DNA from: a virus | DNA length: 37,581 nucleotides | Strand: one strand, 5' to 3' | Virus record (IMG/VR): IMGVR_UViG_3300047668_001127 | Location: 1 to 37,581 of that record | Shown: one piece after another, positions 6,227 through 37,122 of the stretch | Layout of the letters: each line of letters opens with the position of its first letter | Position numbering within the stretch: position 1 is the stretch's first letter | The notes under the pieces: model-generated | What the model saw: the letters and a program-made list of their open reading frames with translations, nothing else | Databases searched by the model: none | Told to the model about the DNA's origin: nothing | Made by a program: the position numbers and the translations under genes

Positions 6227-6231
6227 ACACT

Positions 6232-6238
6232 TATTTAT
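6232..6238 (-). promoter_or_regulatory. T4-late-like box (ATAAATA) upstream of the 2OG oxygenase
   Basis: On the minus strand, ATAAATA ends 5 bases before the ATG at 6226. If it works like a T4 late promoter, transcription would begin at about the start codon. It can also be read as the -10 of a TTGACA-17-ATAAAT promoter. Confidence 0.5.
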
Positions 6239-6264
6239 CGGTTTAGGTATAACAGTGTCAACCG

Positions 6265-6271
6265 ATAAATA
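6265..6271 (+). promoter_or_regulatory. T4-late-like box (ATAAATA) upstream of the fatty acid hydroxylase-like gene
   Basis: The plus-strand mirror copy of the box ends 6 bases before ATG 6278. Position and symmetry suggest a promoter with a very short or no leader. Function is inferred from sequence only. Confidence 0.5.
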
Positions 6272-6277
6272 AAGTTG

Positions 6278-17596: not shown

Positions 17597-17603
17597 TATT
17601 TAT
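17597..17603 (-). promoter_or_regulatory. T4-late-like box (ATAAATA) of the lipoprotein gene
   Basis: Minus strand, context ACATAAATAG, overlapping the stop codon of queE and 52 bases upstream of ATG 17544. Confidence 0.6.
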
Positions 17604-18487
17604 GTTCCGATAGCATTACCAAACAAGTAAACATGAACCCTTGCGGCAACATTGTATCCTCGTTTAAATGCTTTTTCTGCAACCGCACCTGCTGTTGCAT
17701 GTTGTTCTTCTTCTCTAGCTCCTACGGGCATAACCCATACAGGCCACATAACGCCAGCTTTCCTAAACTGACTAATAACCCCTTCCATTTCTTCCCAATG
17801 TTCTTCTTTATGGCCTACTACAAACTTTAGTTGACCTGTTTTTGATAAATTATAATACTCTGCAACTGTCTCAGGTTTAATTGCCTTTGAAGCTTTTTCT
17901 CCTGCTACAGACCAAAGTTTAGGACTACAAGAAAAGAATATTTCAGTATCTATTGATTCTACCCAATTCTTAAAGTCGTTGCTTAATTCCTGTGTACCAT
18001 TAGTTTCAAATGTCATACTACCTGGCAAATTATTTTGCTTTAGTAATTCATTATATATTCCAATAACTGCACGTTGTCCGGTAATCATAAGTGGCTCACC
18101 GCCTGTAACACATAAATGTTGCTTATATTGTGAAACAGGATGTAAGAACAAACCTTCTGGATTACTATCTGTTCTGATAATGTCAATAATTTTGTTTGCT
18201 AATACTTCAGGCTCTTCATGTCCCATTAGGCTCTTAAATTTCTTTGCCCAGGTATAACTGCTATCACAACCTTTGTCCCAAACAGGTAAGTCCTCAACTC
18301 TACTTACACTTGATACATCAAAATCTTCAAATGGTAGTTCGTATGTGCTAGGATCAGTTGGATCTATTTGCCCAAAGCCATTACATTGCAAGTTACATAA
18401 AAAGAAACGTATCCATGCAGTAGGTACACCAGTATAATGCCCTTCTCCTTGGATACTGTGAAATATTTCACTATAATAGTATTTCAT
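17600..18487 (-). CDS. queE: QueE-like 7-carboxy-7-deazaguanine synthase (radical SAM), with an insertion in the cluster region
   Basis: QueE converts 6-carboxytetrahydropterin to CDG using a [4Fe-4S] cluster and SAM. The sequence shows the QueE start SEIFHSIQGEG (6-16), FFLCNLQCN with C31 and C35, a third cysteine C74 in GCDSSYTW, and TGGEP at about 128-132 for SAM binding. The 38 residues between C35 and C74, rich in Asp and Pro, replace the two-residue spacing of the normal CX3CX2C motif. The length, 295, is greater than that of most bacterial QueE (about 210-240). A sigma70-type promoter lies at 18509-18537. With FolE, QueD-like and DpdA it points to 7-deazaguanine in phage DNA or tRNA. 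A different radical SAM activity is possible but less likely. Confidence 0.88.
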   Translation of the reverse strand: MKYYYSEIFHSIQGEGHYTGVPTAWIRFFLCNLQCNGFGQIDPTDPSTYELPFEDFDVSSVSRVEDLPVWDKGCDSSYTWAKKFKSLMGHEEPEVLANKIIDIIRTDSNPEGLFLHPVSQYKQHLCVTGGEPLMITGQRAVIGIYNELLKQNNLPGSMTFETNGTQELSNDFKNWVESIDTEIFFSCSPKLWSVAGEKASKAIKPETVAEYYNLSKTGQLKFVVGHKEEHWEEMEGVISQFRKAGVMWPVWVMPVGAREEEQHATAGAVAEKAFKRGYNVAARVHVYLFGNAIGT

Positions 18488-18538: not shown

Positions 18539-19294
18539 CTATATTTTTACCGTAAATTCTTTATATTTTTCAATGCTCTTATCAAGCAATATCTCTAATT
18601 TTGTTAAATCTACCCAACCCTTAATAACTGCTAGTACTTTACGGTTTGTCCCATCAAAGTCTGCACCATGTAAGTAATCTTCGTTGTTCCAGGCAAATGT
18701 ATTAGTACTATCTGGTAATACAATATAATGTTTTTTATCTATTGGTACCTCAGTATTTGGTTTGTGTTCTTTAGCAGATGTAAGCCAAAATGTAGGTTTA
18801 GGATTATCATCTTGTAACATTACACGAATTTCTGTAGGAAAGAACATTTTACCATCTAAACTATCTGGCATGTTACCATCGTAGTGTGCTGGTATTTCTT
18901 TATGTGCTGACCAAAGCCTAATACTTCTTATCCTAACAAATGGTAGTTCGTTAAACATTCGTTGTACCATAATAGGACTTATTGCTCTAGCCTCTTCTGT
19001 AATCTTAGTACCCCAAGATCCATATTCATACAGATCCATGTCCTCATGTAATGCTAACCCATGCCATTGAGTTTTAGTTATATCTGGATTAGTTAAATTA
19101 GCAGAGCCTCTGTCAATATGGTTTCTCCAAACAACATGATTTTCATTTGTCCATAGATCCCAGAAAGCATCTGGATCGTCAAATACAAAAGGTTCTAAAT
19201 CAAGTGGTAAAGAAACTATATCCTTATACTTGTAGTTAAGGTGTGGGCATTTAGTAAGATCTATTAAATCTCTTAGCTCGTTATAATTAGGCAA
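18539..19294 (-). CDS. 2OG-Fe(II) oxygenase-like protein, TTG start
   Basis: The 251-residue protein has H137-Y-D139 (IPAHYDGN), distal H209 (DYLHGADFDG) and R218 (TNRKVLAV), in the order and spacing of an HxD...H...R 2-oxoglutarate oxygenase; it recalls aspartyl/asparaginyl hydroxylase-like proteins. A supporting FFPTEIRVMLQ strand lies between the triad parts. The start is TTG 19294, immediately after the ferredoxin TAG stop, with GGAG 6 bases upstream. No ATG suits better. It is the last gene of the FolE operon (zero-base gap). The substrate is unknown; since it shares an operon with FolE and a PRTase, a nucleotide, pterin or protein substrate is possible. Confidence 0.65.
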   Translation of the reverse strand: MPNYNELRDLIDLTKCPHLNYKYKDIVSLPLDLEPFVFDDPDAFWDLWTNENHVVWRNHIDRGSANLTNPDITKTQWHGLALHEDMDLYEYGSWGTKITEEARAISPIMVQRMFNELPFVRIRSIRLWSAHKEIPAHYDGNMPDSLDGKMFFPTEIRVMLQDDNPKPTFWLTSAKEHKPNTEVPIDKKHYIVLPDSTNTFAWNNEDYLHGADFDGTNRKVLAVIKGWVDLTKLEILLDKSIEKYKEFTVKI

Positions 19295-19622: not shown

Positions 19623-20162
19623 TTATTTCTTCTCCCAAGGGAAGACAATCCATTTATCTTCTTCTTCTTTATTAATTTCTATCGACGAGTAATGAACTTC
19701 AGTATCACTACTTAGATTATCTACAATAGATGCAAATCTAACATTGCCTCCCCAAACAGTATTCCACGATTCTTCATTTGGTAAGCATCCTGCAGGCCAG
19801 TCTTGTTTAATCCAATTAAACGTTGCACCAGTGTCATTAATATCATCTACAATTAGAATTTTTTTACGTCTAGATGGATCCCATCGGCATTTATGAAGTT
19901 CACGTTCTTCTTCTGGAACATAGCCAAATGCATCTTCTGACATCCAATAATTAGATTCTGGCTGGCCAGTTGCATCTCTAAGCCTAACATCTAACGTATG
20001 CATAGACAAACTATATTGATGACTTAGTAATATTGCTGGTAATAAGCCGCCCCTAGTAATACCAACAACGTAATCGGGCCGCCAGTTATCTTTCCACATC
20101 TGACTTGCAATGTCATGAACAGCCTCTTCGACCTGCTCGCCTGTTAAAAACATTTTTTTCAT
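19623..20162 (-). CDS. type I phosphoribosyltransferase (xanthine/hypoxanthine-guanine type)
   Basis: The 179-residue protein has the PRPP-binding motif [14 protein letters not shown] (102-115, D106, D107, D110) and the loop [10 protein letters not shown] (34-43), as in the Gpt/Hpt branch of the type I fold. Such enzymes attach a purine base to PRPP to make a nucleotide. The region between 60 and 95 is an insert with many Glu and Trp residues. It sits between a hypothetical gene and ferredoxin with gaps of 1-2 bases, in the FolE operon. Likely role: purine salvage, or handling of a deazapurine base (inference). Other PRTase substrates such as orotate are less likely on motif spacing. Confidence 0.82.
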
Positions 20163-20607: not shown

Positions 20608-21288
20608 TTAATTTTTAGGCTTATTAACAATATTCATAAATTCTGCCCTTACAGATGAATCAGTTTTAAATACACCACCTAGTTTACTAGTTACTGTAAA
20701 GCTACCTGTATCTTCAACTCCTCGTGACTTAACACAATAATGTTGGGCATCTACTACAACCGCAACATTATCTGTTTCTAAGATAGCTTGTAGTGCATGA
20801 AATACTTGCTCTGTTAAGCGTTCCTGAATTTGAGGACGTTTAGCAAAGTATTCAACAATACGATTAATCTTTGATAATCCTAATACTTTTTGTTTTGGAA
20901 TATAACCTACTGTAGCAAGACCGTCAATAACAACAAAATGATGTTCACAGTTACTTTGAACATTAATATTCCGTTCAATAACCATTTCATCATATTTCAT
21001 TTTATTATCAACTGCGGTGCATTTAGGAAATGCTTCGTAATCGAGACCCCAAAAGATTTCATTTACATACATTTTTGCAACTCGCTTAGGCGTATCAATT
21101 AGACTATCGTCTGACAAATCAAGCCCTAGTGCTTCCATAATATTAATAAAGTTTTTCTCAATAATATCAATCTTATCTGTACGACTTAGATTGTTATCAA
21201 TAGTAGGAGTTTCAACTCCTTGCTTAACTAGATATTCATGGATTGCTTTTCCCAGAATGGGATCGGTTTTAGTTTTATTATATGACAT
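20608..21288 (-). CDS. folE: GTP cyclohydrolase I FolE
   Basis: FolE opens GTP to dihydroneopterin triphosphate, the first step towards folate and 7-deazaguanine. The 226 residues cover the whole E. coli-type enzyme: LETP-like start (QGVETP, 23-28), DDSLIDTPKRVAKMY (60-74), SNCEHHFVVIDG with C114 and H116-H117, GLSKINRIVEYFAKRPQIQE (137-156), and QHYCVKSRG with C185 as the third zinc ligand. Similarity to gammaproteobacterial FolE is striking. A late-type box lies at 21353-21359 and a doubled SD (AAGGAAGGA) precedes the ATG. It heads a five-gene operon with a PRTase and ferredoxin. It feeds QueD-like and QueE, or folate for ThyX. Confidence 0.96.
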   Translation of the reverse strand: MSYNKTKTDPILGKAIHEYLVKQGVETPTIDNNLSRTDKIDIIEKNFINIMEALGLDLSDDSLIDTPKRVAKMYVNEIFWGLDYEAFPKCTAVDNKMKYDEMVIERNINVQSNCEHHFVVIDGLATVGYIPKQKVLGLSKINRIVEYFAKRPQIQERLTEQVFHALQAILETDNVAVVVDAQHYCVKSRGVEDTGSFTVTSKLGGVFKTDSSVRAEFMNIVNKPKN

Positions 21289-21386: not shown

Positions 21387-21644
21387 TTACGCACAAAGCA
21401 AGACATCACTTGGCCATAATTCAAGAAATTCCATCATATCTTCCCGTTTAGTAAACGTTATATATGTGGTTGTTGACATGTTATTAACTAATTCCTTGCT
21501 ATTTCTAAGATGATGGATTTTTCTCCAATCAATTGGTTGATTTTTATAATTATTGGCAGTCCATCGTTTACCACAATTAGCATTAAGCCATTTTTTAATT
21601 TTAGCTAACTCTACTACACTTTTATCTAACTTAATGTTGTTCAT
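21387..21644 (-). CDS. small phage protein, 85 aa
   Basis: Not recognised. A basic N-terminal half (AKIKKWLNANCGKRW) is followed by a strand-helix end TYITFTKREDMMEFLELW, a weak relative of the EEDAML(F/W) pattern at 11039-11374 and 35350-35634. It overlaps the glutaredoxin gene by 4 bp and is the last gene of the long transcript that runs from DpdA. Confidence 0.62.
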   Translation of the reverse strand: MNNIKLDKSVVELAKIKKWLNANCGKRWTANNYKNQPIDWRKIHHLRNSKELVNNMSTTTYITFTKREDMMEFLELWPSDVLLCA

Positions 21645-21892
21645 GCTTCTGTGTAGATTTTGTGATTCATTAAATCAGTCCAACCTCCAACTAACTTATC
21701 ATCAACAAAGATTTGAGGAACTGTTTTAGCATTAGGTACTGCTTCAAGTAGCATCTCCTTAGTAAACCCATCTGCTCCAATCTTATGTTCTGTATATGCT
21801 ATGTCTTTTGTTTCAAAGAAGTGTTTAGCCATATCACAGTAACCACATAAATCTCTGCTGTATATTACAACTTTATATCTAGTATTATACAT
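21641..21892 (-). CDS. glutaredoxin
   Basis: An 83-residue thioredoxin-fold protein with the redox site LCGYC (CxxC), then the family motif TVPQIFVDDKLVGGW with cis-Pro in TVP and a GG turn. An upstream in-frame start exists at 21934, but ATG 21892 overlaps the previous stop as TAATG and gives a normal glutaredoxin length. It would reduce disulfides with glutathione; in T4-like phages glutaredoxin commonly supplies electrons to ribonucleotide reductase, though no reductase lies in this window. A role in Fe-S transfer with IscU is possible only for monothiol types, and this is dithiol. Confidence 0.93.
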   Translation of the reverse strand: MYNTRYKVVIYSRDLCGYCDMAKHFFETKDIAYTEHKIGADGFTKEMLLEAVPNAKTVPQIFVDDKLVGGWTDLMNHKIYTEA

Positions 21893-22083
21893 TATACTTT
21901 TTCTAACCTTTCTGTCATAGATCCTATAAAACAACTTCCTTCAGTTGCATTGTAATCATTTATTATATCAGGGAGTTTCTTGTTACACTCCTCTAGTTTA
22001 GTTATGCCATACATCTGTTCTGGATCTATACTCATATTAAATCCACTAAAGGTTAAGTATACTACCAAGATTACCTCATTCAT
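21892..22083 (-). CDS. small protein with hydrophobic N-terminus, 63 aa
   Basis: Not recognised. The product starts MNEVILVVYLTFSGFNMSID, a likely short signal sequence or membrane anchor, then a helix with ITKLEECNKKLPDI and two cysteines. A GTG one codon upstream (22086) is an alternative start. It overlaps the nucleotidyltransferase by 8 bp and glutaredoxin by 1 bp. If exported, a disulfide between the two cysteines is plausible. Confidence 0.55.
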   Translation of the reverse strand: MNEVILVVYLTFSGFNMSIDPEQMYGITKLEECNKKLPDIINDYNATEGSCFIGSMTERLEKV

Positions 22084-22486
22084 CACATACTCGTTTTCTT
22101 AGGTCAGTAGTACTAAATCGGTGATCTCTTTTATTAAAATATAATTCAATATCTCTAGCTTTACAAACATCTCTACCTGTAAAATCTTTTTCTTTATATT
22201 CTACACCCAAGAATCTTACGTCTAATTGAAACAAACTTAGTATGTCTATTACATCTACTTCTGTTTGATAAGGTACAATCTCGTTAACAAATTTTAATGC
22301 ATTTAATTGTGTATAACGTTCTACCATTGTTTGTATTGGTTTGTTTTTTGTGTCCGGTCTATCAATAGTAGGATCGCTTTGTAGACCAACAATAAGATAA
22401 TCGCAATTTGCTTTTGCTTCTCGTAACATACCAACATGTCCTGCATGAAGTAAGTCAAATGTACTAAATGTAATACCTACTCTCAT
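22076..22486 (-). CDS. cytidylyltransferase-like nucleotidyltransferase (TagD/HldE type)
   Basis: The 136-residue protein has the HxGH site in TFDLLHAGHVGM (H14, H17) and the C-terminal HRFSTTDLRKRV motif (RxxST-like), the two catalytic parts of glycerol-3-phosphate cytidylyltransferase and heptose-1-P adenylyltransferase. It would activate a small sugar or polyol phosphate with CTP or ATP. Length is normal for the stand-alone type. It overlaps the dehydrogenase gene by 4 bp and lies in a run with GalE, cupin and a glycosyltransferase, so a sugar-nucleotide pathway is likely. Substrate not determined. Confidence 0.87.
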   Translation of the reverse strand: MRVGITFSTFDLLHAGHVGMLREAKANCDYLIVGLQSDPTIDRPDTKNKPIQTMVERYTQLNALKFVNEIVPYQTEVDVIDILSLFQLDVRFLGVEYKEKDFTGRDVCKARDIELYFNKRDHRFSTTDLRKRVCDE

Positions 22487-23226
22487 GATCGTAATCTTTT
22501 ATTTGTTTTAATTACGCTATCTAATATTGGTAAGTTATATGCATTACTAAATGCTTCTGTATCTTTAGGAAAACATTTACCACCAAATCCTAATCCACCA
22601 TCACTGTTTGGTACATTCATATGTGTAGATCCAATTGTATCAAAAAATGATAGACCTTCAATTAGTTTATCATGATTGTATTCATCTCCACACTTATTAT
22701 ATAAGTCATGAAAGAAAGCAACTTTTGTTGCAAGCCAGCAATTATGAACATACTTAATTATACTTGCAGTAGCTAAATCTGTAACAAAGAATTCTTTTGG
22801 AAATAAACTCTCCGTCCAAACATTTACTTTAGTATATACATCTTTCCAAAACTCGACATCTTGTCCAGCAAGTATTAGAGGAAAATTGTTGTTAGTAGTA
22901 GGGTTAATTTCACTTATAAATTCTGGACTGTATGTACACTCTTTGTACTTAATAATTTGTTTAGGTAAGATTGTACTTTTAATAAGAATTGGAGTATTGT
23001 ATTGTTGTATATTATCATATGCTTCAGCAATTAAGCTATCGTCACACACTCCAAGTACTGTTGGAGTAGGTAAGCAAAGTACCCAAGCATCTGAGTCTGT
23101 ATTCTGTTCTATAGTATTAGAATTAAGTGCTGGATCAATTCTTACAATTTTATTTGTGAGAACTGATTCTAATTCAAAAGCTACTTGTTCGCCAACGTAG
23201 CCACATCCGATAATTGAAATTTTCAT
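22483..23226 (-). CDS. short UDP-glucose/GDP-mannose 6-dehydrogenase-like protein
   Basis: Family marks: NAD-binding GCGYVG (7-12), STILP (84-88), SPEF (100-103), K158/N162/K168 in the central helix, and the catalytic cysteine C218 in GFGGKCFPKD. These enzymes oxidise a UDP-sugar C6 alcohol to an acid. The protein has 247 residues versus about 390-450 for the family: the N-terminal domain is compact and the C-terminal UDP-binding domain is missing, with an intact stop. ATG 23226 overlaps the upstream stop (TAATG). A frameshift is not suspected because the next gene follows in a 4-bp overlap. Activity may be retained in altered form. Confidence 0.82.
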   Translation of the reverse strand: MKISIIGCGYVGEQVAFELESVLTNKIVRIDPALNSNTIEQNTDSDAWVLCLPTPTVLGVCDDSLIAEAYDNIQQYNTPILIKSTILPKQIIKYKECTYSPEFISEINPTTNNNFPLILAGQDVEFWKDVYTKVNVWTESLFPKEFFVTDLATASIIKYVHNCWLATKVAFFHDLYNKCGDEYNHDKLIEGLSFFDTIGSTHMNVPNSDGGLGFGGKCFPKDTEAFSNAYNLPILDSVIKTNKRLRS

Positions 23227-23486
23227 TAGTGTAACGTAAGAGTGCCAATTTTTCTGGCCATCTTCTCCCTGCATTCTGGTATAGTTGCTCTAACAGTTTC
23301 AAGCAATTTTGAGATCTCTTGATCATCTAACATTATAGTATATAGCTCTATAGCAGTAGCTACTAATGTGCCTGCAACCATTAACAGTTGTTGATCGCCT
23401 TCTGGACCGATGCGAGTAGAAACTATGTCCCACAGTTCTTGTTGCAATTCAGTTATATCAGCATCGGTTATTTCATCCTTAGACAT
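23226..23486 (-). CDS. hypothetical helical protein, 86 aa
   Basis: Not recognised. The product is acidic at the start (SKDEITDADITELQQELWD) and appears almost fully helical with a hydrophobic centre (LLMVAGTLVATAIELYTIML). It is too mixed for a clear membrane protein. It overlaps the dehydrogenase gene by one base and abuts the cupin stop with no gap, so it is tightly co-translated in the sugar-nucleotide run. Confidence 0.62.
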   Translation of the reverse strand: MSKDEITDADITELQQELWDIVSTRIGPEGDQQLLMVAGTLVATAIELYTIMLDDQEISKLLETVRATIPECREKMARKIGTLTLH

Positions 23487-23813
23487 TTATTGTGTTCTCC
23501 TTCCATCAAATACACATACAAAATAAACTCCATATGGTCCTGCATGAACTCTATGAAAAACACCGTCTTCGATGAGTACTACATCACCTTCTCTAAACTT
23601 TATAAATTTATCATCAAGTTCTAGTCTACCGCTCCCTTGAACAAAATAATAAACTTCCTCTTGCCCTTCGTGCTTGTGTCCGTTAGTACTTTTCATAGGT
23701 TGCAATTTTGTGCTACTTATTACTAGATTTTTTAATGTGGTATTATCTTTAACAATATACCTGTCATCTTCCTTAGCAACTATGCCACCAATATCTCTAA
23801 TTGATAAAGTCAT
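23487..23813 (-). CDS. cupin-domain protein
   Basis: This 108-residue single cupin has motif 1 as NGHKHEGQEEVYYFVQG (H46, H48, E52/E53) and motif 2 around EDGVFHRV (H87), so a metal site is complete. Small cupins in sugar-nucleotide clusters are epimerases or isomerases, but the fold also serves many other functions. It overlaps the next gene by 4 bp. The position between GalE and the dehydrogenase suggests work on the same sugar. Confidence 0.85.
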   Translation of the reverse strand: MTLSIRDIGGIVAKEDDRYIVKDNTTLKNLVISSTKLQPMKSTNGHKHEGQEEVYYFVQGSGRLELDDKFIKFREGDVVLIEDGVFHRVHAGPYGVYFVCVFDGRRTQ

Positions 23814-24019
23814 GTTATCTTATCTCCTGAGTATACTACTGTAAACTCCTTGCCAATAAAATCAATCCAAGACTCATGAATTTCATTTTGAGGAGTAACA
23901 ACTGCACCTTTATATGATCCGCCAAGTTTTAATTGCATAAACTTGTAACTTGCTTCTTCTGTTCCTAATGTTCGACCTCGTTTTGTTTTAACACTAGTCA
24001 TAGTAATAATTTTATCCAT
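23810..24019 (-). CDS. hypothetical protein, 69 aa
   Basis: Not recognised. The small beta-rich product (TKRGRTLGTEEASYKFMQLK, then a short FTVVYSG end) overlaps the end of galE by 8 bp and the cupin by 4 bp, so it is translated as part of the sugar-nucleotide run. No motif supports a function. Confidence 0.6.
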   Translation of the reverse strand: MDKIITMTSVKTKRGRTLGTEEASYKFMQLKLGGSYKGAVVTPQNEIHESWIDFIGKEFTVVYSGDKIT

Positions 24020-25037
24020 GATCCTTATACCTTTGACAATTATACCATGCCCACGAAGTTCGAATAATATTATCTAACGTCGAGTTACTTGCTTTCCATC
24101 CTGATAACATTTCTAATTTTTTTGGATTAGCTACTAGCCTAGGTGGATCGCCAGGCCTACGTGGCCCATTATGCACTAAAAGAGTTTTATTAGTAAGTCG
24201 TTCAACTGCACTAATAATCTCTTTAATTGAATAGCCTCTTCCGGATCCTAAGTTATAGACCTCAAAAGGCTTATCTGGTTTAAATTGTTTAGATATTTCA
24301 AAAGCGGTTTGATGTCCACGAGCAATATCAGTTACATGCAAGTAATCTCTTACACATGTACCATCTGGTGTATCGTAGTCATTACCGTTAAGGGTAAATA
24401 CATCTTTCTTAATTAATGCTTCCATAATACGAGCAATAAGATGTGTTGCTTGTTTAAGTTGTCCATGTCTAACTTCGTTATCAGCACCACAGGCATTAAA
24501 GTATCGTAAGCAGATTGCTTTAAATCCATATGCAATAGCACAATCTTCAATAACTTTTTCTGCCATTAACTTACTCGTACCATATGGACTAGGAGGAACA
24601 GTTTCTGAATTTTCTTTTAACGAGTCATATTTTAATGCGGCATTTTCTGCATACACTGCGGCTGAACTTGAGAAAATAAAGACTCCTTTAAATTTCATAA
24701 TACCTAATGCTTTAAGTAATTTAGATGTCTGTCCAACATTATTAATATAGTACAAGGCAGGATCTGTAACACTAGGTCCTACTAAACTCTCACCAGCACA
24801 ATGGATTACTGCTACTGGGTTAAGTGTTTGAAGTTGGCGTAAAAAGATCCCGTTTGCATAATCACCTGGTACAAATGAATCAATCATACCATCTCGTAAA
24901 TATTGTCCAGCAGACTGGCTTCTATCAACTCCTAGGATTTTATATCCTAACCCTTTAAAATGTAATACAGTCTGTCCGCCAATGTAACCATTGCATCCTG
25001 TAATAGCAATCCATTCTTCTCGTTCTGCTGATTCCAT
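24012..25037 (-). CDS. galE: UDP-glucose 4-epimerase-like GalE
   Basis: The 341-residue extended SDR has the Rossmann motif TGCNGYIGG (13-21, GxxGxxG), HCAGES near 79-84, FSSSAAVY (122-129) and the catalytic Y152-xxx-K156 (YGTSKLMAEK), plus CVRDYLHVTDIARGH and NLGSGRGYS, all typical of GalE. It would interconvert UDP-glucose and UDP-galactose (or the GlcNAc/GalNAc pair) using bound NAD. The length is normal. It lies 11 bases after the glycosyltransferase. The product could serve the glycosyltransferase at 25049-26233. Confidence 0.93.
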   Translation of the reverse strand: MESAEREEWIAITGCNGYIGGQTVLHFKGLGYKILGVDRSQSAGQYLRDGMIDSFVPGDYANGIFLRQLQTLNPVAVIHCAGESLVGPSVTDPALYYINNVGQTSKLLKALGIMKFKGVFIFSSSAAVYAENAALKYDSLKENSETVPPSPYGTSKLMAEKVIEDCAIAYGFKAICLRYFNACGADNEVRHGQLKQATHLIARIMEALIKKDVFTLNGNDYDTPDGTCVRDYLHVTDIARGHQTAFEISKQFKPDKPFEVYNLGSGRGYSIKEIISAVERLTNKTLLVHNGPRRPGDPPRLVANPKKLEMLSGWKASNSTLDNIIRTSWAWYNCQRYKDHG

Positions 25038-25048
25038 TATTTACACCT

Positions 25049-26233
25049 TTAATATTTTGTAGTTGCTACATGATCTCTATATCTGTTACCAGACCTAGAC
25101 CATTGTTTACCTTCACCTTGCATAATGTCAAGCATACGATCAATAGTACCATCAGTCCAATCACTAATAGGTCCTTGATTAACTGGTCCTTGTAGTAGTT
25201 TTTCTAACTTCATAATTGCATCTTCCTGACTCCAAGGAACATATAAACGTTCATGATCATTATTAAAAGTTTCTGGGAAACTCCTATAAGCTGGATATAA
25301 AACATTGCATCCTAGTGTGTCTGCTTCACTTACAGTATTACTAACCCAATCTTGTAACGCACAATTAAACAAAACTTTACTATCATTAAGTATAGCATAA
25401 TAATCATTCTTTTGCAAGTCATTATATATTGTAAGATGCCCTTTTTCTTGCATTGCTTTTGCACGTTCAATATACTTAGAATTATTAGACCGTAAAGGTC
25501 CGCCACTTAGTACTGCAAATTCAATCCTTTCATTTTCTTTAAAGTGTGTTGAATTGTAAGTATCAATAAGATCCATAAAGAAATCAGGTTGTTTTTCTTG
25601 ATCAAACCTTGCCGCAAATACAACTCGATTTTTTCGTGTATTCCAATCTTGTACATTGCCACCAACACGCCCTAATACTTCTTCTTTACCAAAGCTAAGT
25701 CCACTAATATTATAAATTGGTGCTTTCCAATTAGCAATACGCATATGAGCAACCATTTCCTCATCAGTTGCTAGGATAGAAACATTAGGAATCTCATTAC
25801 ACATTTGTTCGTATAACGACATCCATTTGCTCATTCCCCATACATGAACAAAGTCATCAGGGTCAATTGCTTGTGCTAGGCAACGTAGAAATATTTTAGG
25901 TCGTTGCTCTGCTGGTATCTGACACATGATATAAGGTAGTGACTCCATACCAGGTTGGAACATATCTTCAAAAAAGACAACATCGTCACCTGTACATTCT
26001 CCACTTCGCATCATTTGTACTAAGTTCATCATCTGACTCATACCAAAGTATGAACGTCCGTGAGCATCTAGTACTTGTCCTACACTAATTGCTTTAGTAT
26101 CGTCGATTGTAGTTCCAGGAACAATAGTATAATCAATATTCCTTTTTTGAAATTTAGCAACACTCCACTGTTGAAGCTGAAGTGTATACCTGCCTTCATA
26201 AGGTTCAAGCCCCATGTAGAATAGCCTACGCAT
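25049..26233 (-). CDS. GT-B type glycosyltransferase (GT4-like)
   Basis: The 394-residue protein shows the second half of a GT-B enzyme: RVVFAARFDQEKQPDFFMDL (203-222), then a nucleotide-binding part SNTVSEADTLGCNVLYPAY (298-316) with the E-x-x-x-x-G pattern of GT4 donors. The first half (1-200) is less conserved and would bind the acceptor. Acceptors could be DNA base, virion protein, or a cell-surface glycan. It overlaps the upstream gene by one base and precedes galE, and lies in the same run as the QueD-like and DpdA genes. T4-type DNA glucosyltransferases are also GT-B, but no direct similarity is claimed. Confidence 0.82.
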   Translation of the reverse strand: MRRLFYMGLEPYEGRYTLQLQQWSVAKFQKRNIDYTIVPGTTIDDTKAISVGQVLDAHGRSYFGMSQMMNLVQMMRSGECTGDDVVFFEDMFQPGMESLPYIMCQIPAEQRPKIFLRCLAQAIDPDDFVHVWGMSKWMSLYEQMCNEIPNVSILATDEEMVAHMRIANWKAPIYNISGLSFGKEEVLGRVGGNVQDWNTRKNRVVFAARFDQEKQPDFFMDLIDTYNSTHFKENERIEFAVLSGGPLRSNNSKYIERAKAMQEKGHLTIYNDLQKNDYYAILNDSKVLFNCALQDWVSNTVSEADTLGCNVLYPAYRSFPETFNNDHERLYVPWSQEDAIMKLEKLLQGPVNQGPISDWTDGTIDRMLDIMQGEGKQWSRSGNRYRDHVATTKY

Positions 26234-26652
26234 TATACTACTACAGTTTTACGAGCAGGGAAACAACATGATCCATCTGCTACATGGTCACTATCGTAGA
26301 AATTCTTATAAATTCCTACATGAATCTTTAGTACCTTTGCAGTACGTTCAGCAGTACCTTGCACATGAAATGTATAAGTAAAACTTCGGTTGCCGGTATC
26401 AGTATGAAACCGGCTTGCAGGTTCATCAATAGTATAACTAAAGATTTGATTTGACTTTTTCAAGTCCTCAAGATATGGAACATAAAGTTCCAATGGCAAC
26501 TTTGCCAACTCAGGAGTAAGATAGCCATCATATAGCTCTGAAATCTTTAATAGATCAAACTTAATATGAGCTAAGTTTAAAGACTTCTGCCTACGTGGTT
26601 GACTGAAGCGAATGTGTCGTTGCACATTAATCGAATTGTCGGAAACAACCAT
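26233..26652 (-). CDS. hypothetical protein between QueD-like and glycosyltransferase genes
   Basis: Not recognised. The frame is open to 26733 inside the QueD-like gene; ATG 26652 (MVVSDNSINV) has AGAGGA 8 bases upstream and is chosen over ATG 26658, where the spacing would be 2. The 139-residue protein has FDLLKISELYDGYL, RFHTDTGNRSFTYTFHVQG and KVLKIHVGIYKNF, a mixed alpha/beta look. HVQG and FHTD do not make a complete oxygenase triad. Its fixed place between a deazaguanine enzyme and a glycosyltransferase makes it interesting as a possible pathway part. Confidence 0.6.
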   Translation of the reverse strand: MVVSDNSINVQRHIRFSQPRRQKSLNLAHIKFDLLKISELYDGYLTPELAKLPLELYVPYLEDLKKSNQIFSYTIDEPASRFHTDTGNRSFTYTFHVQGTAERTAKVLKIHVGIYKNFYDSDHVADGSCCFPARKTVVV

Positions 26653-26998
26653 TTTCATTATCCTCTGATACATCGATCCATACAGATCGGTTTGTGTACT
26701 TATTATTAATTTCTTTATATAAATCTTCTGCAATCATTTCGCAACTCTTATAATCAAGTTGTAAAGTTTTGCCTTTGTAAAGATTTATACACCATCGTTT
26801 AAATTGAATAAACTCTACATCTCTATCGTCATGGAATACCTCTAAGTGTACTTTAAAATGAAAAATGTGTCTATGTAAGTCTGCTAGAAAACTTACATCA
26901 TACTCGTCACCTGTAGCCAGTTTAGGGTCTGTTGCCGCGGCTGGGTAACAATGTATACCTTCTAGTTGGAAAGTAATCCAGATCATGTCTTTTGACAT
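26627..26998 (-). CDS. QueD-like 6-carboxytetrahydropterin synthase family protein (divergent)
   Basis: The 123-residue protein fits the PTPS/QueD fold: H16 (EGIHCYPA) and H42, H44 (LHRHIFHFKVHLEV) are the three zinc histidines in the right order, DVEFIQFKRW sits where QueD has VVDFxxLK, SCEMIAEDLY matches the ptsE-la-y helix, and WIDVSEDNENG ends with the acid residues near the active site. The catalytic Cys of QueD (normally about residue 24-27) is not obvious: C17 is the only early candidate. It could make 6-carboxytetrahydropterin, the QueE substrate. A divergent PTPS-like protein with altered activity is the alternative. The preceding region has no promoter, so it is read from the DpdA transcript. 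Confidence 0.66.
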   Translation of the reverse strand: MSKDMIWITFQLEGIHCYPAAATDPKLATGDEYDVSFLADLHRHIFHFKVHLEVFHDDRDVEFIQFKRWCINLYKGKTLQLDYKSCEMIAEDLYKEINNKYTNRSVWIDVSEDNENGCFRQFD

Positions 26999-27025
26999 AT
27001 TCTCTGTCCTTTTTGTTAGTTAATG

Positions 27026-27355
27026 TTAATCGTCAATGTAATTTTCAGCTTTTAAATACAACCACATTTTCCAGTCAATTGCACCAAGGAATTGGTTTGT
27101 ACTTTCTAGCTGATTTTCAATAGCAGTTAGACGTGTTAGAATTTCGTCATTGCTTACTGTTGAAACTGGGGGAACAACACTATTGTCTGTTTGTTCTATA
27201 TTGTCATCTTGTTCTATTGCATCAGATGCAATAAGATCATTATCAGAATTCCTAGATTTTGGTCTAGGCTTTTTAGTAATAGGAATTCGTTTTGCTGGTT
27301 TAGATTCACCATCACCGTGCGTTCCGACATCTCCAAGATCTAATTTTTCTGACAT
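27026..27355 (-). CDS. hypothetical protein, low-complexity head and helical tail, 109 aa
   Basis: Not recognised. The first 65 residues are polar and disordered-looking, with a basic patch (KRIPITKKPRPKSRN) followed by an acidic one (DAIEQDDNIEQTDN). The tail (EILTRLTAIENQLESTNQF) is a heptad-like coiled coil ending in WKMWLYLKAENYIDD. This charge-split layout suggests a nucleic-acid or protein-binding adaptor. It lies between the deazaguanine genes. Confidence 0.62.
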   Translation of the reverse strand: MSEKLDLGDVGTHGDGESKPAKRIPITKKPRPKSRNSDNDLIASDAIEQDDNIEQTDNSVVPPVSTVSNDEILTRLTAIENQLESTNQFLGAIDWKMWLYLKAENYIDD

Positions 27356-27426
27356 ATTATAATCCTTTAACTTGTTTCATGTTGTATATATAGTTACTTA
27401 AATATTCTAGCATCTGTTAGCCGAAA

Positions 27427-27954
27427 CTAATCTAAATAAGAAATAGTCTCGTCTTTTTCGTAATGTTCCCAAGGTGTCATAATTTCATCGGCAGTTAAAT
27501 CTGCAACATTGTGACACCAAACACCATTATTAGATCCTTTAAATTCTGCATCTGCAATCTTAACAATAAGGTTAGGGTTAATAGTTTTAACATCAGGAAT
27601 ATGAACACTTAGCAACGGAATAAACTTTTTAGATTTCCATACTTCTGGTTTAATTATATTTAAAAATGTCTTATGCAAATAAGATTCATAATCAAACGAC
27701 ACCCAAAAGTCTTTAGCTAATAGTTCTGTTATTGTCTTACTCCAATCATTTTTTGGAAATGAAGTAGTGTAAGTGTTAACACTATGATTTGCACCTAAGT
27801 ATATATGAGGAGTTTCGTGTTCCCTTGCTACCTCAATAATTAACTTAGAAGCAGGATGTCCTTGAACAAACAATGTTTTCTTACCAAATGCCGCCGTATG
27901 TTCTACTTCAATTCCTGTAAAGAATTCTGCTAAATCATAATTATCTATTGCCAT
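27427..27954 (-). CDS. hypothetical phage protein, 175 aa
   Basis: Not assigned to a known family. The N-terminal stretch (LAEFFTGIEVEHTAAFGKKT) then LFVQGHPASKLIIEVAREHE, and a later HIYLGANHSVN, look like an alpha/beta domain with a His-rich active-site region. From memory, similar proteins occur in marine T4-like phages without known role. It starts one base before the methyltransferase stop, in the DpdA-QueD stretch. Confidence 0.64.
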   Translation of the reverse strand: MAIDNYDLAEFFTGIEVEHTAAFGKKTLFVQGHPASKLIIEVAREHETPHIYLGANHSVNTYTTSFPKNDWSKTITELLAKDFWVSFDYESYLHKTFLNIIKPEVWKSKKFIPLLSVHIPDVKTINPNLIVKIADAEFKGSNNGVWCHNVADLTADEIMTPWEHYEKDETISYLD

Positions 27955-27955
27955 A

Positions 27956-28699
27956 TTATTTGCCCTTTAGAAGTGTTTCAATTTCATTGAAATCATTGTT
28001 AATTTTATTTACTGAGTTATATAAATCGTATGAAAGAGCACTATATTCTTTTACAATCAAATCAAAATTATCTTCTAATACTGTTGACAAGTTATCTAAG
28101 TTTGTTACAAATCCAAGTCCTGTTGGAAAAGTAGGAATAGTTCTTGCTACAAGATCAGTTCTATACTTGTTAATAATATGCATAAACTTCCAAGTGTCAC
28201 CTGCCCAATAAAATGTATTCCAATCTCTAGTAGCAGTTTCTGGAACTACAGGAAATACATCATGGAATAATACTACAGTATCCTTTGTAGAGTGTTTTTC
28301 AATGTTAATAAAATCTCTAAGTACTTGATCATAATGATGTAATCCATCTACAAAGGCAAGTTGAATTGGACCGTTTAATAATGCCTTTACCTCAAATTTA
28401 TTAAAGAAGTTATCACTTGTTTCAGAATAAACTGTAGTGTTACTTGTAAGTTTAACGTCAATAAGCGGCTCTGGGTCTACTCCAACAGTAAGTGTATCTT
28501 TGCTAACGTACTGCAACGACTTACCAGTATTCACACCAATTTCTAAATAGTTTGATGGTTGCATTGTTTTATGAAACCACTGCAACCAATCAGTATATTG
28601 TACACCTGGCAACAAACGTTCGGTAGTCTCTTCATGTCTTGCTTTTTCTTCAAGATTTTTTCCTGCTTGTTGCGGTTCGTCGATCTTAATACTAGTCAT
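27956..28699 (-). CDS. class I SAM-dependent methyltransferase-like protein
   Basis: SAM-binding motif I is YLEIGVNTGKSL (51-62), an acidic loop at D118-GLHHYD, and VLFHDVFP (143-150). This order matches Methyltransf_24-type enzymes, which often methylate sugars or natural products. ATG 28699 has AGAGG 7 bases upstream; the ATG at 28705 overlaps the DpdA stop and lies too close to that ribosome site. The protein is next to DpdA, so methylation of a modified base is a candidate, and methylation of a sugar from the nearby cassette is another. No DNA-methylase DPPY/NPPY motif is seen. Confidence 0.78.
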   Translation of the reverse strand: MTSIKIDEPQQAGKNLEEKARHEETTERLLPGVQYTDWLQWFHKTMQPSNYLEIGVNTGKSLQYVSKDTLTVGVDPEPLIDVKLTSNTTVYSETSDNFFNKFEVKALLNGPIQLAFVDGLHHYDQVLRDFINIEKHSTKDTVVLFHDVFPVVPETATRDWNTFYWAGDTWKFMHIINKYRTDLVARTIPTFPTGLGFVTNLDNLSTVLEDNFDLIVKEYSALSYDLYNSVNKINNDFNEIETLLKGK

Positions 28700-28701
28700 G
28701 T

Positions 28702-30249
28702 TCATACCTCTGCTCCGACTATTAGTTGTGCCAATGCCTCATCATTAGGATCATCATACATACCTGACTCTGCCATTACTTCTGTAGTACTGCCATCATC
28801 TGTATCAAACAAATCGTTAACTGAATCTGCACCCGTCTTGCGACCTTTTCGACCGGAAAACTCATTCATTAATTGCACACACTGATCTAGTAATGTGTAT
28901 GGTTCTTCACTTTTAAATACCATATCAACTAGTGTCATCATATATAGACAATTCCTAGGTACCCAAAGATCCACTTGACCTTCTTGTGTACGTTGTCTTG
29001 TCTTACGCCATTCTCTTGGATCCGGCTTATTTAAACTCCAGGCAATATCAGCTAAGTTATTAGCTCGTTGTACAGATTGTATATGTTGATCTACATTATG
29101 TGCCATAATCAAACTATAAGAAAATGTATCCCAGCTTGTTTTAGAAACTTTACCATTTTTGTTTGCTTGACCTGGAGCATAAGTGCAAACATCTCCCATA
29201 GTAATTCTATCTCCAACTGCTGACGACCAAGGCCAAGGGGTTTTACTACCACTAAGTTCTCGGCTATCAACAGCCTTTTCCATTACATATGTCATACGTT
29301 CGTTTGTGTGTACATGTTGAGTGTAGGTTAAACCGTATGCCGTGCTAACGAATGGAGATGCACAGTCGTATGTTACTAGTAAGTTAGGATTGACAGTTGC
29401 CTTCAAGGCCCTTTGAATCGCCGTTAAAAAGATTGCCCATTCCAATCGACTTGTTCCAAGCACATGAAGTACATCACGTCCTGGATCAAGCATTCCTTCG
29501 TCACGCATTTGAATTAACCTACGAAGCAATAGGTGGGCATCTTGCATATTGTTACCGCCCATTGCCCAACCTTCAAATGGGAAGTGTTTAACATTATCAT
29601 ACCAAATATCAGCTTCTTCATTCGTACTACCTTGTAATACATTAAGAAACTTAGTCTTATGTTGTCTATTAGATAAGAACCATGCATTGTTATACATTGT
29701 ACCATCTAGACATTGCTGAAAACTTTTTAGTCCAGTACGTTCATTTAGAGGGGGCCTAGCCGCCCAGGTCGGAATATCAAGTACCATAGAATAGTCCGCA
29801 GTATGCTCGAGCCATCCTAAGATTTGGCCTCTAGTTTTATCTGCACTACCAACGTAGCCTTCATCACCTGGTCGTTCTAAAAAGTTCTCCCAATCAAATT
29901 TAATAACACCTTTTGCAATCTGGAAACCACCTGAATCACCTAAGATAAACGTTTTTTCTTTGTCTCGCTTTTGAACCATACTTTCAAACGTGTCACATTT
30001 ATTTAAATCTAACTGAGCATGTCCTGCTGAGTACAATGCATACGGATAATGGAAGTATGCATCTTTCTTATTTAAAAAGTTTAATCCTTCAACTCCAGAT
30101 TCAAATCCTGCTGGTACACGTTCTGCTGGTACACTCTTACCTGGTTCATTCTGGTCTTTACTTACTACTGTAGAATAAAAAGTAGAGATGCTAGGCAGGA
30201 ATACTGCATAGTCCTCATTCTTACTCCATAAATCAATCTTAGGTTGCAT
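28702..30249 (-). CDS. dpdA: DpdA-like transglycosylase (TGT family, 7-deazaguanine insertion)
   Basis: The 515-residue protein has TGT-type active-site landmarks: D105-SGGFQ (105-110) for base recognition, LNVLQGS (202-208), GWAMGG (227-232), HVLGTSRLEW (262-271) and YDCASPF, where D295 corresponds to the TGT nucleophile. Phage DpdA proteins exchange guanine in DNA for preQ0 or related bases. The C-terminal region beyond about 400 is acidic and Gly/Asp-rich and is not part of the TGT core. GAGGG lies about 8 bases before the ATG. Together with FolE, QueD-like and QueE it forms the modification pathway. DNA rather than tRNA as target is inferred from family resemblance, not shown. Confidence 0.87.
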   Translation of the reverse strand: MQPKIDLWSKNEDYAVFLPSISTFYSTVVSKDQNEPGKSVPAERVPAGFESGVEGLNFLNKKDAYFHYPYALYSAGHAQLDLNKCDTFESMVQKRDKEKTFILGDSGGFQIAKGVIKFDWENFLERPGDEGYVGSADKTRGQILGWLEHTADYSMVLDIPTWAARPPLNERTGLKSFQQCLDGTMYNNAWFLSNRQHKTKFLNVLQGSTNEEADIWYDNVKHFPFEGWAMGGNNMQDAHLLLRRLIQMRDEGMLDPGRDVLHVLGTSRLEWAIFLTAIQRALKATVNPNLLVTYDCASPFVSTAYGLTYTQHVHTNERMTYVMEKAVDSRELSGSKTPWPWSSAVGDRITMGDVCTYAPGQANKNGKVSKTSWDTFSYSLIMAHNVDQHIQSVQRANNLADIAWSLNKPDPREWRKTRQRTQEGQVDLWVPRNCLYMMTLVDMVFKSEEPYTLLDQCVQLMNEFSGRKGRKTGADSVNDLFDTDDGSTTEVMAESGMYDDPNDEALAQLIVGAEV

Positions 30250-34254: not shown

Positions 34255-35295
34255 TTAACCTCCGTAGATAGTGTTATGTGTATTTAGACAACGAACAAAT
34301 ACTGCACACTTTGGCATATCTTTAATTCGTTTTGCTCCAATGTAGGTACAAGCACTTCTAACCCCGCCTAAGATTTCTGTAATAGTATTATCTACATCTC
34401 CTTTATACGGAATGGTAACTACTTTACCTTCTGCTCCTCGATAACCGTCTTTACGTGAACCGTGTACAATCATAGCTTCGTCTGAACTCATGCCATAAAA
34501 TTTTACCATGCCGTCTTCAATTTGTCCTTCAGATTCATCATGTCCTGCTAACATGCCACCAAGCATTGTAAAATGAGCACCTGCTCCAAATGCTTTAGCA
34601 ACATCTCCTGGATATACACAGCCGCCATCTGCAATAATATGTCCACCAATCCCATTAGCGGCATCTGCACATTCAATAATACCAGACAGTTGGGGAATAC
34701 CAACACCTGTCATTAAACGTGTTGTGCAAACACTACCAGGACCAATGCCACATTTAACAATGTCTGCTCCTCGGACAATGAGTTCTTCAACCATCTCCGC
34801 AGTAATAACATTGCCTGCAATAATAGTTTTATCCGGATAACGATCACGAAGACGTGAAATAAATGCACCATAGTTTTCGTGATAAGCATTAGCCACGTCA
34901 ACTGTGATAAATTTAATATCAGGATAGTTTTCTAACACTGCATTCATTGTTGCAAAGTCTGCCGCATCTGGATCCCAGATGGCGGCTGTTCCAGTACATA
35001 CACTGATGTACTTCATTTTGACACCATTACCAATAGCATGTTTCCAATCTTCTATTGTATAATGTTTTCGCATTACAGTTAGCATCTTATGCTCTTGCAA
35101 TTTCTTTGCCATTGCAAAAGTTCCAACACCATCCATATTAGATGCCAGTATAGGGACTCCGGACCATGTATTACCAGAGTTATGAAACTTAAATGTTCGG
35201 AGCAAGTCTACATCACGCCTAGATTCTAGTTTGCTCCGCTTTGGCTTAAAGAGTACATCTTTAAAATCCAGCTTAATTTCTTCTTCAATACGCAT
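34255..35295 (-). CDS. guaC: GMP reductase GuaC
   Basis: The 346-residue protein resembles E. coli GuaC from end to end: MRIEEEIKLDFKDVL start, SNMDGVGTF (52-60), GNVITAEMVEELI (161-173), GIGPGSVCTTR with catalytic C190, DGGCVYPGDVAKAFGAGA and LGGMLAGHDES. It makes IMP from GMP with NADPH, so it lowers GMP and raises the supply for adenine nucleotides. The lack of a CBS insert and the length separate it from IMP dehydrogenase. AAGGA lies 6 bases before the ATG and a TTGACA/TATAAT promoter lies at 35325-35353. It would help an AT-rich phage rebalance purines, while FolE drains GTP. Confidence 0.94.
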   Translation of the reverse strand: MRIEEEIKLDFKDVLFKPKRSKLESRRDVDLLRTFKFHNSGNTWSGVPILASNMDGVGTFAMAKKLQEHKMLTVMRKHYTIEDWKHAIGNGVKMKYISVCTGTAAIWDPDAADFATMNAVLENYPDIKFITVDVANAYHENYGAFISRLRDRYPDKTIIAGNVITAEMVEELIVRGADIVKCGIGPGSVCTTRLMTGVGIPQLSGIIECADAANGIGGHIIADGGCVYPGDVAKAFGAGAHFTMLGGMLAGHDESEGQIEDGMVKFYGMSSDEAMIVHGSRKDGYRGAEGKVVTIPYKGDVDNTITEILGGVRSACTYIGAKRIKDMPKCAVFVRCLNTHNTIYGG

Positions 35296-36240: not shown

Positions 36241-37122
36241 TTATGGCTGTTTTTGTTTGCCTTCGTGGTCTAATTGCTCTAATGTGCCTTTTAGATAAAG
36301 GTCATCCGATGACATGGAATCAATTATTGATATGGAATCAATCCGTTCTATATCTTCTTCAATGCATTCTTCACCAAATTGTATTTCAATGATCCGTAAT
36401 ACCTCATCAGTATCATTTTGTAACATGTGCCAATCGCCCTTTTCAATAGTAATAATATCATGTGCCTGAAATTTTCCTATAACGTATGCATCAGAAGAAA
36501 CATTAATACCATATAATGTAGCAACACCTTGTGCTACAAACCAATGTTCAGATCTTTTGTCATGTCGTTGCATTGAAAGTCTTCTTCTAGGATCTACTAC
36601 TAATTCTTTTACTTTTGATGTTTCTAGGTCTCTATGTACTGTCCAATACCCCCACGGACGATTCTGTGTTACCATGTTACGCTTCCCCCATTTATCTAAT
36701 AGTTCGCTACTAGAATTCTTTTTATTATCTCCGCCAACTCCCCATGCAAAATTAATATCAATCATTGCAACCTCTGGGACATTTTCATGCTTTCGGTCAC
36801 CCCCGTTGGCAAATGTAATCTTATTATCTGGATAAATTTTACGGACATGATCTAACAGTTTACATGCAGTTCCATCCTTATCATCAAATGCCAAAGCAAT
36901 ATCGACCATTTCCATTGATTGTACTATGTCAATACGTTCTTCAACAGATTGAAAATTTCTACCTTTTTTTAATCCTAACCAATGGTCCGAATTAATTCCT
37001 ACTAATAAATAATCTCCTAATTCTCGAGCTTGCCTAAATAAATCTAGGTGTCCAGAATGTATTGGATCAAACCCTCCTGAAACCACTATAATATGGTCTT
37101 TGGGCTTTGGAAACGAGTGCAA
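36241..37122 (-). CDS. nucleotidyltransferase-cupin fusion, TTG start
   Basis: The 293-residue protein joins two domains. Residues 10-150 form a HxGH nucleotidyltransferase (GGFDPIHSGHLDLF, H22, H25; SSSELLDKWGKRN at the end), similar to heptose-1-phosphate adenylyltransferase or cytidylyltransferase. Residues 154-250 form a type II mannose-6-phosphate isomerase-like cupin (NRPWGYWTV, LSMQRHDKRSEHWFV with H187/H193, GDWHML with H232). The last 40 residues are acidic. One chain may thus activate a sugar phosphate and isomerise a partner sugar. The start is TTG 37122 with AAGGAG 7 bases upstream. A plus-strand gene diverges 49 bases away. Confidence 0.85.
   Translation of the reverse strand: MHSFPKPKDHIIVVSGGFDPIHSGHLDLFRQARELGDYLLVGINSDHWLGLKKGRNFQSVEERIDIVQSMEMVDIALAFDDKDGTACKLLDHVRKIYPDNKITFANGGDRKHENVPEVAMIDINFAWGVGGDNKKNSSSELLDKWGKRNMVTQNRPWGYWTVHRDLETSKVKELVVDPRRRLSMQRHDKRSEHWFVAQGVATLYGINVSSDAYVIGKFQAHDIITIEKGDWHMLQNDTDEVLRIIEIQFGEECIEEDIERIDSISIIDSMSSDDLYLKGTLEQLDHEGKQKQP

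Follow-up and report, generated by a model that had tools for sequence, protein, structure and literature searches.

A glycosyltransferase (GT) gene lies among genes predicted to make a 7-deazaguanine base and place it in DNA in the marine viral record IMGVR_UViG_3300047668_001127 of IMG/VR, whose whole stretch of 37,581 bases was analysed and is called the window here, and the question raised by this locus is what the enzyme glycosylates. The earlier note had named two acceptors, the 7-deazaguanine base, giving a glycosylated base in DNA, or a virion or cell-surface glycan, and had held that linkage alone cannot decide between them. It appears that comparative linkage goes far toward the base: the GT stays with DpdA, a predicted DNA-guanine transglycosylase, and with o123, a QueD-fold protein, in unrelated phages and in bacterial islands, and QueC is absent from the named phages that carry the GT, so that a deazaguanine acceptor is favoured and a virion glycan is unlikely. 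We put a probability of roughly 0.6 on the reading that a DpdA-coupled GT4-type enzyme glycosylates a base derived from carboxy-deazaguanine, with the sugar ending on a DNA base; that the GT works with DpdA at all is, in our judgement, very likely. The three genes are as follows.

25049-26233, minus strand: DpdA-associated glycosyltransferase, 394 amino acids, GT-B fold, GT4-like, core (Pfam Glycos_transf_1, 5e-6)
26627-26998, minus strand: o123, QueD/PTPS T-fold paralog, 123 amino acids, core (AlphaFold2 model and Foldseek)
28702-30249, minus strand: DpdA, predicted DNA-guanine transglycosylase of the tRNA-guanine transglycosylase (TGT) superfamily, 515 amino acids, core (profile comparison and conserved aspartates)

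Co-occurrence was followed from several starting points. In a set seeded with DpdA, comprising 57 IMG/VR relatives and three named phages and sorted into gene families by single-linkage clustering, 40 loci had at least 5.5 kb of downstream sequence; the GT family and o123 were each found in 39 of them, the conserved protein o175, FolE and a phosphoribosyltransferase in 38 each, and GalE in 34. The sole locus of the 40 without the GT nearby, that of Sinorhizobium phage Phosso, has it about 170 kb away, between the clamp gene and FolE-QueE. Four loci (L023, L026, L028 and L029) had seemed to be GT-less when the window GT alone was the query, but a divergent GT was found in them on clustering, and another (L027) ends too early for the presence of the GT to be judged. 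In L023 and L026, an orotidine-phosphate decarboxylase-like gene was recognized by eye beside the GT (family f76), between it and o123.

A scan of viral DNA with the window GT returned at least 599 stretches (at least 592 confirmed), and DpdA was present in 74 of the best 80, which were examined. With the PA5oct-like GT, 193 stretches were obtained, the best 80 of which contained DpdA in 77 cases, o123 in all 80, and a QueC relative in none. All nine DpdA misses in these two sets are loci in which the contig ends 0.2-4.2 kb upstream of the GT. When o123 was the seed (best 80 of at least 585), DpdA was detected in 71 loci and the GT in 75, and both were found in every one of the 38 loci with at least 6 kb of upstream and at least 4 kb of downstream sequence.

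Since the seeded sets share contigs and lineages, which counts against the DNA-base reading, the loci were clustered by GT identity; 202 of 217 had a GT match over 250 amino acids and entered the clustering, which leaves 15 aside. At 70% identity, 21 clusters were formed, in which DpdA and o123 are universal, o175 and FolE occur in 20, the phosphoribosyltransferase in 19, and QueE in 18. The donor-sugar genes are far less constant (GalE in 8 clusters, UDP-sugar dehydrogenase in 6, cytidylyltransferase in 5, cupin in 3, and methyltransferase in 2). At 95% identity, DpdA was found in 102 of 108 clusters, each of the other six being one locus truncated by the end of its contig. The distance between DpdA and the GT is 1.1-5.7 kb (193 loci). 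In six of 126 tabulated loci, the DNA polymerase stands at 65% or more and the window-type GT is kept, with DpdA below 45%, and the same table contains both GT types with two DpdA classes. Members of the module are thus exchanged and their place remains occupied, which speaks against mere synteny. DNA polymerase and clamp genes accompany the module in most loci.

The GT, o123, and DpdA form a core that is apparently obligate, and GalE, the dehydrogenase, the cupin, the cytidylyltransferase, and the methyltransferase are interchangeable accessories. Co-occurrence with DpdA, which the earlier note had proposed as a check, holds for the GT (21 of 21 clusters) and fails for the donor-sugar genes (2-8 of 21); the idea that all sugar genes belong to one pathway tied to DpdA is rejected on the counts given above, as only the GT is core and the donor genes come and go. 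All the gene types that had been named beside DpdA were found there on the minus strand, as listed below with o175.

22076-22486, minus strand: cytidylyltransferase of the glycerol-3-phosphate/ethanolamine-phosphate type, accessory (CTP_transf_like 1.5e-11; 3elb 2e-23)
22483-23274, minus strand: short UDP-sugar 6-dehydrogenase-like protein, accessory (UDPG_MGDP_dh central domain 1e-11; 7kws 2e-11)
23487-23813, minus strand: cupin, accessory (Cupin_2 5e-11)
24012-25037, minus strand: GalE, UDP-glucose 4-epimerase, accessory donor gene (Epimerase 1.1e-42; best solved relative 4twr 1.8e-63)
27427-27954, minus strand: o175, conserved protein, near-core (relatives aligned from ACP17 gp122 and X1)
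27956-28705, minus strand: methyltransferase, accessory, overlapping DpdA by 4 bp (Methyltransf_24 7e-14)

The dehydrogenase gave no match for the C-terminal UDP-binding domain and keeps a GGKCFPKD motif; as its relatives are equally short (258-261 amino acids), it represents a short family and not a broken gene. No relative of the methyltransferase was found by a PDB sequence search, and o175 has neither a Pfam nor a PHROG match. In other loci, a GFO/IDH/MocA gene and an alcohol-dehydrogenase-like gene lie between DpdA and o175, for example at L037:11725-12618 and L046:12698-13675; this pair, which is probably another donor-sugar module, occurs at that place in 45 of the 80 loci seeded with the PA5oct-like GT and is present in 7 of the 21 clusters.

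Donor-sugar genes of these kinds could also mean that the GT and its neighbours decorate a protein of the capsid or tail, or a sugar on the host surface, the proximity to DpdA being a matter of syntenic inheritance. GalE, UDP-sugar dehydrogenase, cytidylyltransferase, and cupin genes are common in surface-glycan loci, and the window encodes a second nucleotidyltransferase-cupin protein (36241-37122, upstream of IMPDH), in which the cupin is of the mannose-6-phosphate isomerase type. Such a cassette would be expected to sit with structural genes and not to depend on DNA-modification genes; instead, DpdA and o123 accompany the GT in all loci with full flanks, in unrelated genomes and even where DpdA has been swapped, the module can do without GalE and the other donor genes, and PHROG and Pfam scans of the window proteins tried named no structural gene. 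We consider a virion or surface glycan to be improbable, and bacterial chromosomes add to this.

Among ten GT loci on genome contigs, DpdA was detected by BLAST in eight. One of the remaining loci (L252) had been taken as lacking DpdA; near its GT it has QueE and a third transglycosylase type, a phrog_887 queuine-ribosyltransferase-like protein (1.5e-30). Two islands, in Aurantimonas (L254:1651-9044) and Devosia (L256:2788-9038), consist of a recombinase, two unknown proteins, DpdA, a YhhQ-like transporter (Pfam Vut_1 match below the cut-off), and the GT, with o123 seen in the Aurantimonas island only. Both lie in chromosomes of isolates among ordinary chromosomal neighbours, and no recognized virion gene was found among the island proteins scanned; a virion glycan is hard to reconcile with this setting. 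The islands are rare, since the Aurantimonas one was found in 1 of 397 genomes of the order, the source itself, and a plasmid search gave no match. PADLOC gave no match for the five island proteins tried (four from Aurantimonas, one from Devosia), the two unknown Devosia proteins being outside that scan. The bacterial dpd island dpdA-K, as it appears in passages of PMC11888242, likewise is a mobile island with DpdA and sometimes with YhhQ; the two islands described here differ from it in having a GT and, in Aurantimonas, o123, and, as far as the five proteins tried go, in giving no PADLOC match.

Among named phages, the GT was found within the deazaguanine clusters of Pseudomonas PA5oct, Acidovorax ACP17, Xanthomonas X1, Synechococcus BUCT-ZZ01, and Sinorhizobium Phosso, where its neighbours are two types of DpdA, those of ACP17, X1, and BUCT-ZZ01 being of the DpdA2 type. 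In PA5oct, DpdA and the GT overlap by one base in a DpdA-GT-o123-phosphoribosyltransferase-QueE group at 223-228 kb, with FolE and QueD about 55 kb away, at 168-170 kb. In BUCT-ZZ01, a second GT4-like gene lies directly upstream of DpdA (L142:12010-13353), so that two GTs flank DpdA.

The base itself is suggested by the distribution of QueC. None of these five phages has a QueC match over the cut-off (PA5oct, BUCT-ZZ01, ACP17, and Phosso have no match; that of X1, 6.6e-4, is below the cut-off and lies at 107 kb, 35 kb away), whereas all five DpdA phages without a GT match do (Vibrio 2.275.O, nt-1, 1.081.O, pf16, and Stenotrophomonas Ps15). The two-sided Fisher p is about 0.008, calculated by hand for the phages fetched only, two of which, nt-1 and 1.081.O, are relatives. 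Among 17 large GT contigs, 12 have no QueC match and five a weak one; four of the latter are below the cut-off, and the fifth, above it, covers the PP-loop only (positions 2-61). A PP-loop protein in the window (3915-4970; SGGIDS motif, weak QueC/asparagine-synthase similarity) was considered as a general substitute for QueC and was rejected, as its relatives occur in 3 of 12 records.

The window DpdA has no PHROG or Pfam match, is 36.7% identical to PA5oct gp168, and weakly matches a Vibrio phage protein labelled "TGT domain-containing protein". In profile comparisons, the DpdA profile A5 matched the DpdA2 profile A7 with an hhalign probability of 95.8% (E 8e-9), and A7 matched E. coli Tgt at 86.7%; the direct comparison of A5 with E. 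coli Tgt is weak (18.8%). PF01702, which does not detect these DpdA families, gave 0 of 9, and PDB sequence searches with A3, A4, and A5 found no convincing relative. D105 (in D-SGG-x-Q), D158, and D295 are invariant in 16 sequences and are presumably the catalytic aspartates, judging from TGT; D295-C-A-S-P is in register with the E. coli Tgt motif FDCVMP in that weakly scoring pairwise alignment. By these sequence comparisons, the window DpdA is a member of the TGT superfamily with conserved catalytic aspartates, for which insertion into DNA is predicted.

Membership in that superfamily would also fit DpdA and the GT acting on tRNA as makers of a phage version of a glycosylated queuosine-like base, for which the queuosine mannosyl- and galactosyltransferases of animals are a precedent. 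Those enzymes resemble the proposed one in acting on a deazaguanine base and differ in that their targets are the cyclopentenediol hydroxyls of queuosine, which the pathway described here does not make. The module lies beside DNA polymerase and clamp genes in most loci, no tRNA gene was found in the window, and, according to parts of PMC6884629, the DpdA of phage 9g and, by inference, the DpdA2 of Vibrio phage nt-1 modify DNA, so the odds that tRNA is the substrate seem to us low.

The third core protein, o123, had been called QueD-like in the earlier note, which holds for the fold, though not in the sense of a canonical QueD. Its AlphaFold2 model (pLDDT 93.7) has a beta-beta-alpha-alpha-beta-beta topology; the top Foldseek match is E. 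coli QueD, 4ntk (5e-5), with a VIA Z of 10.9 and a root-mean-square deviation (rmsd) of 2.7 over 108 aligned residues. H16, H42, H44, and E112 are invariant in 21 sequences as the Zn-binding His triad and the ring-binding Glu, which we equate by eye with what we take to be H16/H31/H33/E110 of E. coli. A conserved Cys before H42 and a conserved Asp-His after helix 1 are missing, presumably the positions of the catalytic Cys and Asp-His pair of QueD and PTPS, and S85-C86-E87 is invariant instead, which points to a QueD-fold protein whose task has changed. That o123 serves as the ordinary QueD of the phage was rejected on these missing residues and on a separate PF01242 QueD in 13 of 16 records searched. 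It might bind or decarboxylate carboxy-deazaguanine, which is a guess.

The model of the GT (pLDDT 77.9) indicates a GT-B fold and a GT4-like retaining enzyme, whose donor and acceptor are predictions. It aligns with retaining GT4 enzymes at VIA Z values of 19-23, such as 6kih (Z 23.1, rmsd 3.6, 330 aligned residues) and BshA, 3mbo (Z 21.8). R209, K214, and E303 are invariant in 37 of 37 relatives, with Asp or Glu at 295; we take these to be the phosphate-binding Arg-x4-Lys and the carboxylates of the E-x7-E motif known from PimA and MshA. T4 AGT and BGT are not among the 50 structural matches listed for the model, which excludes nothing. The window-like and PA5oct-like GT types are about 20-24% identical, and a comparison of their profiles (98.4%, E 4e-15) places them in a single family.

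Tetrahydrobiopterin glucosyltransferases (5zes, with Z 21.6 and rmsd 3.3 over 304 aligned residues, and 9v0l) are among the tied neighbours of the GT model, and o123 has the PTPS fold; both would be in keeping with FolE and a PTPS-like o123 supplying a pterin to which the GT adds a sugar, the product being a pterin glycoside like those of cyanobacteria. BGluT (5zes) shares the GT4-type fold, and its acceptor, a pterin, is chemically related to deazaguanine precursors, but it is about 10% identical to the GT and uses an acceptor hydroxyl on a side chain that is absent here. A pterin product leaves the constant presence of DpdA and the YhhQ-like transporter beside DpdA in two islands unexplained, and o123 lacks what we take to be the catalytic Cys of PTPS and QueD; we give this explanation little credence.

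Another DNA base could be the acceptor, with the GT acting in parallel to DpdA on a hydroxymethyl pyrimidine or the like. T-even phages glycosylate hydroxymethylcytosine, and, in passages of PMC6024577, DNA glycosylation in RB69 needs donor-sugar genes near the DNA polymerase. T4 and RB69 thus resemble the present proposal in a phage glycosyltransferase acting on phage DNA and in donor-sugar genes near the DNA polymerase; the difference lies in the acceptor, hydroxymethylcytosine there and, as predicted, 7-deazaguanine here, with the base placed by DpdA and not by a nucleotide pathway. The GT has DpdA and o123 as its obligate partners; a pyrimidine hydroxymethylase was not recognized among the partners, none having been searched by name, and the island proteins scanned include no recognized pyrimidine gene. 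This variant appears the least probable of all.

A glycosylated deazaguanine in DNA might then arise as follows. GTP would be converted by FolE, QueD (encoded elsewhere in the genome), and QueE to 7-carboxy-7-deazaguanine, which, because the named relatives lack QueC, would not be turned into preQ0. DpdA would exchange guanine in DNA for carboxy-deazaguanine or a derivative. The o123 protein probably binds or reworks the base and, in one reading, prepares the handle for the sugar, which the GT would attach before or after insertion. The accessory genes would choose the sugar, UDP-galactose via GalE being the candidate donor in the window; elsewhere, dehydrogenases, cytidylyltransferases, or methyltransferases may replace or join GalE to give other donors. 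IMPDH, a possible source of guanine nucleotides, and the purine phosphoribosyltransferase would sustain the flow of GTP; the latter perhaps recycles guanine freed by DpdA, which would account for its constancy. The modification may protect the DNA against host nucleases. A broader proposal, to which we would give slightly less than an even chance, is that the DpdA-GT-o123 core makes glycosylated 7-deazaguanine DNA from carboxy-deazaguanine and without QueC, with o123 as a new enzyme or carrier that readies the base for the sugar, with swappable donor genes giving different sugars in different phage lineages, and with self-marking in the bacterial islands.

Besides the shared contigs and lineages, several points weigh against sugar on a deazaguanine in DNA. 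The proposal is weak in its chemistry: since carboxy-deazaguanine lacks a hydroxyl, the sugar would have to be joined through an ester, amide, amine, or C-link, or by way of an intermediate that was not seen. The GT has a generic GT4 fold, and, as pterin, malate, and glycan enzymes are near-tied in the structure list, it does not point to DNA. The absence of QueC is that of the relatives, the window being a 37.6 kb fragment with the PP-loop protein described above. In Xanthomonas phage PhiXhv-12 (L246:12911-16997), a Gat-QueC-like gene (2.7e-51), a PIG-L GlcNAc deacetylase, a GT, and a GFO/IDH/MocA gene stand in a row; this GT is a weak relative (similarity of 24.6% across 72% of the query), and counting it, five of six GT phages are without QueC, so that in the wider family the GT does not strictly exclude QueC. 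PhiXhv-12 is possibly a parallel case, with a sugar and its deacetylation (an amino sugar) on another deazaguanine. On one genome contig (L251), a partial GT match has no DpdA within 8 kb. Finally, a mass spectrum or assay for any GT-bearing phage was not found in the literature searched.

DpdA and DpdA2 have been described in PMC6884629 (Hutinet et al. 2019), passages of which also mention a QueC-less phage that might carry carboxy-deazaguanine; the term "glycos" was not found in its text. Like the systems of 9g and nt-1 treated in parts of that paper, the group described here has FolE, QueD, QueE, and a DpdA-type transglycosylase, and it differs in the lack of QueC over the cut-off in the five named GT-bearing phages and in the GT and o123 as constant partners. 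Term searches in the Paride paper (PMC10761892) and in a jumbo-phage review (PMC13282480) led to no passage on a glycosylated deazaguanine, and no description of a GT coupled to DpdA was found in the literature searched, although a prior mention is possible. If the reading is right, guanine would join cytosine and thymine among the bases glycosylated by phages, through a GT for which one viral scan alone gave the confirmed matches counted above, and GT genes annotated as "hypothetical" in the cultured phages PA5oct, Paride, and ACP17 would gain a testable role. It would also hint at how QueC-less phages use carboxy-deazaguanine and would make o123 a new QueD-fold protein to study; a sugar on the guanine edge could stop nucleases that a sugar on cytosine does not.

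In the window, the run from IMPDH (35295) to QueE (17600) is on the minus strand throughout, with neighbours overlapping or at most 98 bp apart. Its order is IMPDH, two small open reading frames, DNA polymerase, clamp, DpdA, methyltransferase, o175, o109, o123, o166, GT, GalE, o69, cupin, o86, UDP-sugar dehydrogenase, cytidylyltransferase, o64, glutaredoxin, o85, FolE, o146, purine phosphoribosyltransferase, ferredoxin, a 251-amino-acid protein, and QueE. As FolE and QueE follow directly downstream, the sugar genes lie inside the deazaguanine run. The tight spacing agrees with the DpdA-QueD transcript of the earlier note, a single transcript being suggested by gene spacing; promoter- and terminator-like sites showed no excess over shuffles. 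The interval that had been described as sugar genes does hold them, together with non-sugar genes (glutaredoxin at 21641-21934, o175, o109, o166, and small reading frames). The remaining genes of the run with a named role are the following.

17600-18487, minus strand: QueE, maker of 7-carboxy-7-deazaguanine (phrog_2076 4e-53)
19623-20162, minus strand: purine phosphoribosyltransferase (Pribosyltran 4e-11; purine phosphoribosyltransferase 1vdm 2.7e-11)
20608-21288, minus strand: FolE, GTP cyclohydrolase I, which begins the route to the base (GTP_cyclohydroI 9e-63)
34255-35295, minus strand: IMPDH/GMP reductase-type enzyme (IMPDH 1e-66)

A megablast search against phages gave no match. Three further proteins (3129-3935, 5657-6286, and 18539-19294) look by eye like Asp/Asn-hydroxylase-type oxygenases, with no significant Pfam match. 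At 188-3145, an ammonium transporter, a fatty-acid desaturase, and ThyX are encoded consecutively, as metabolic genes in a phage.

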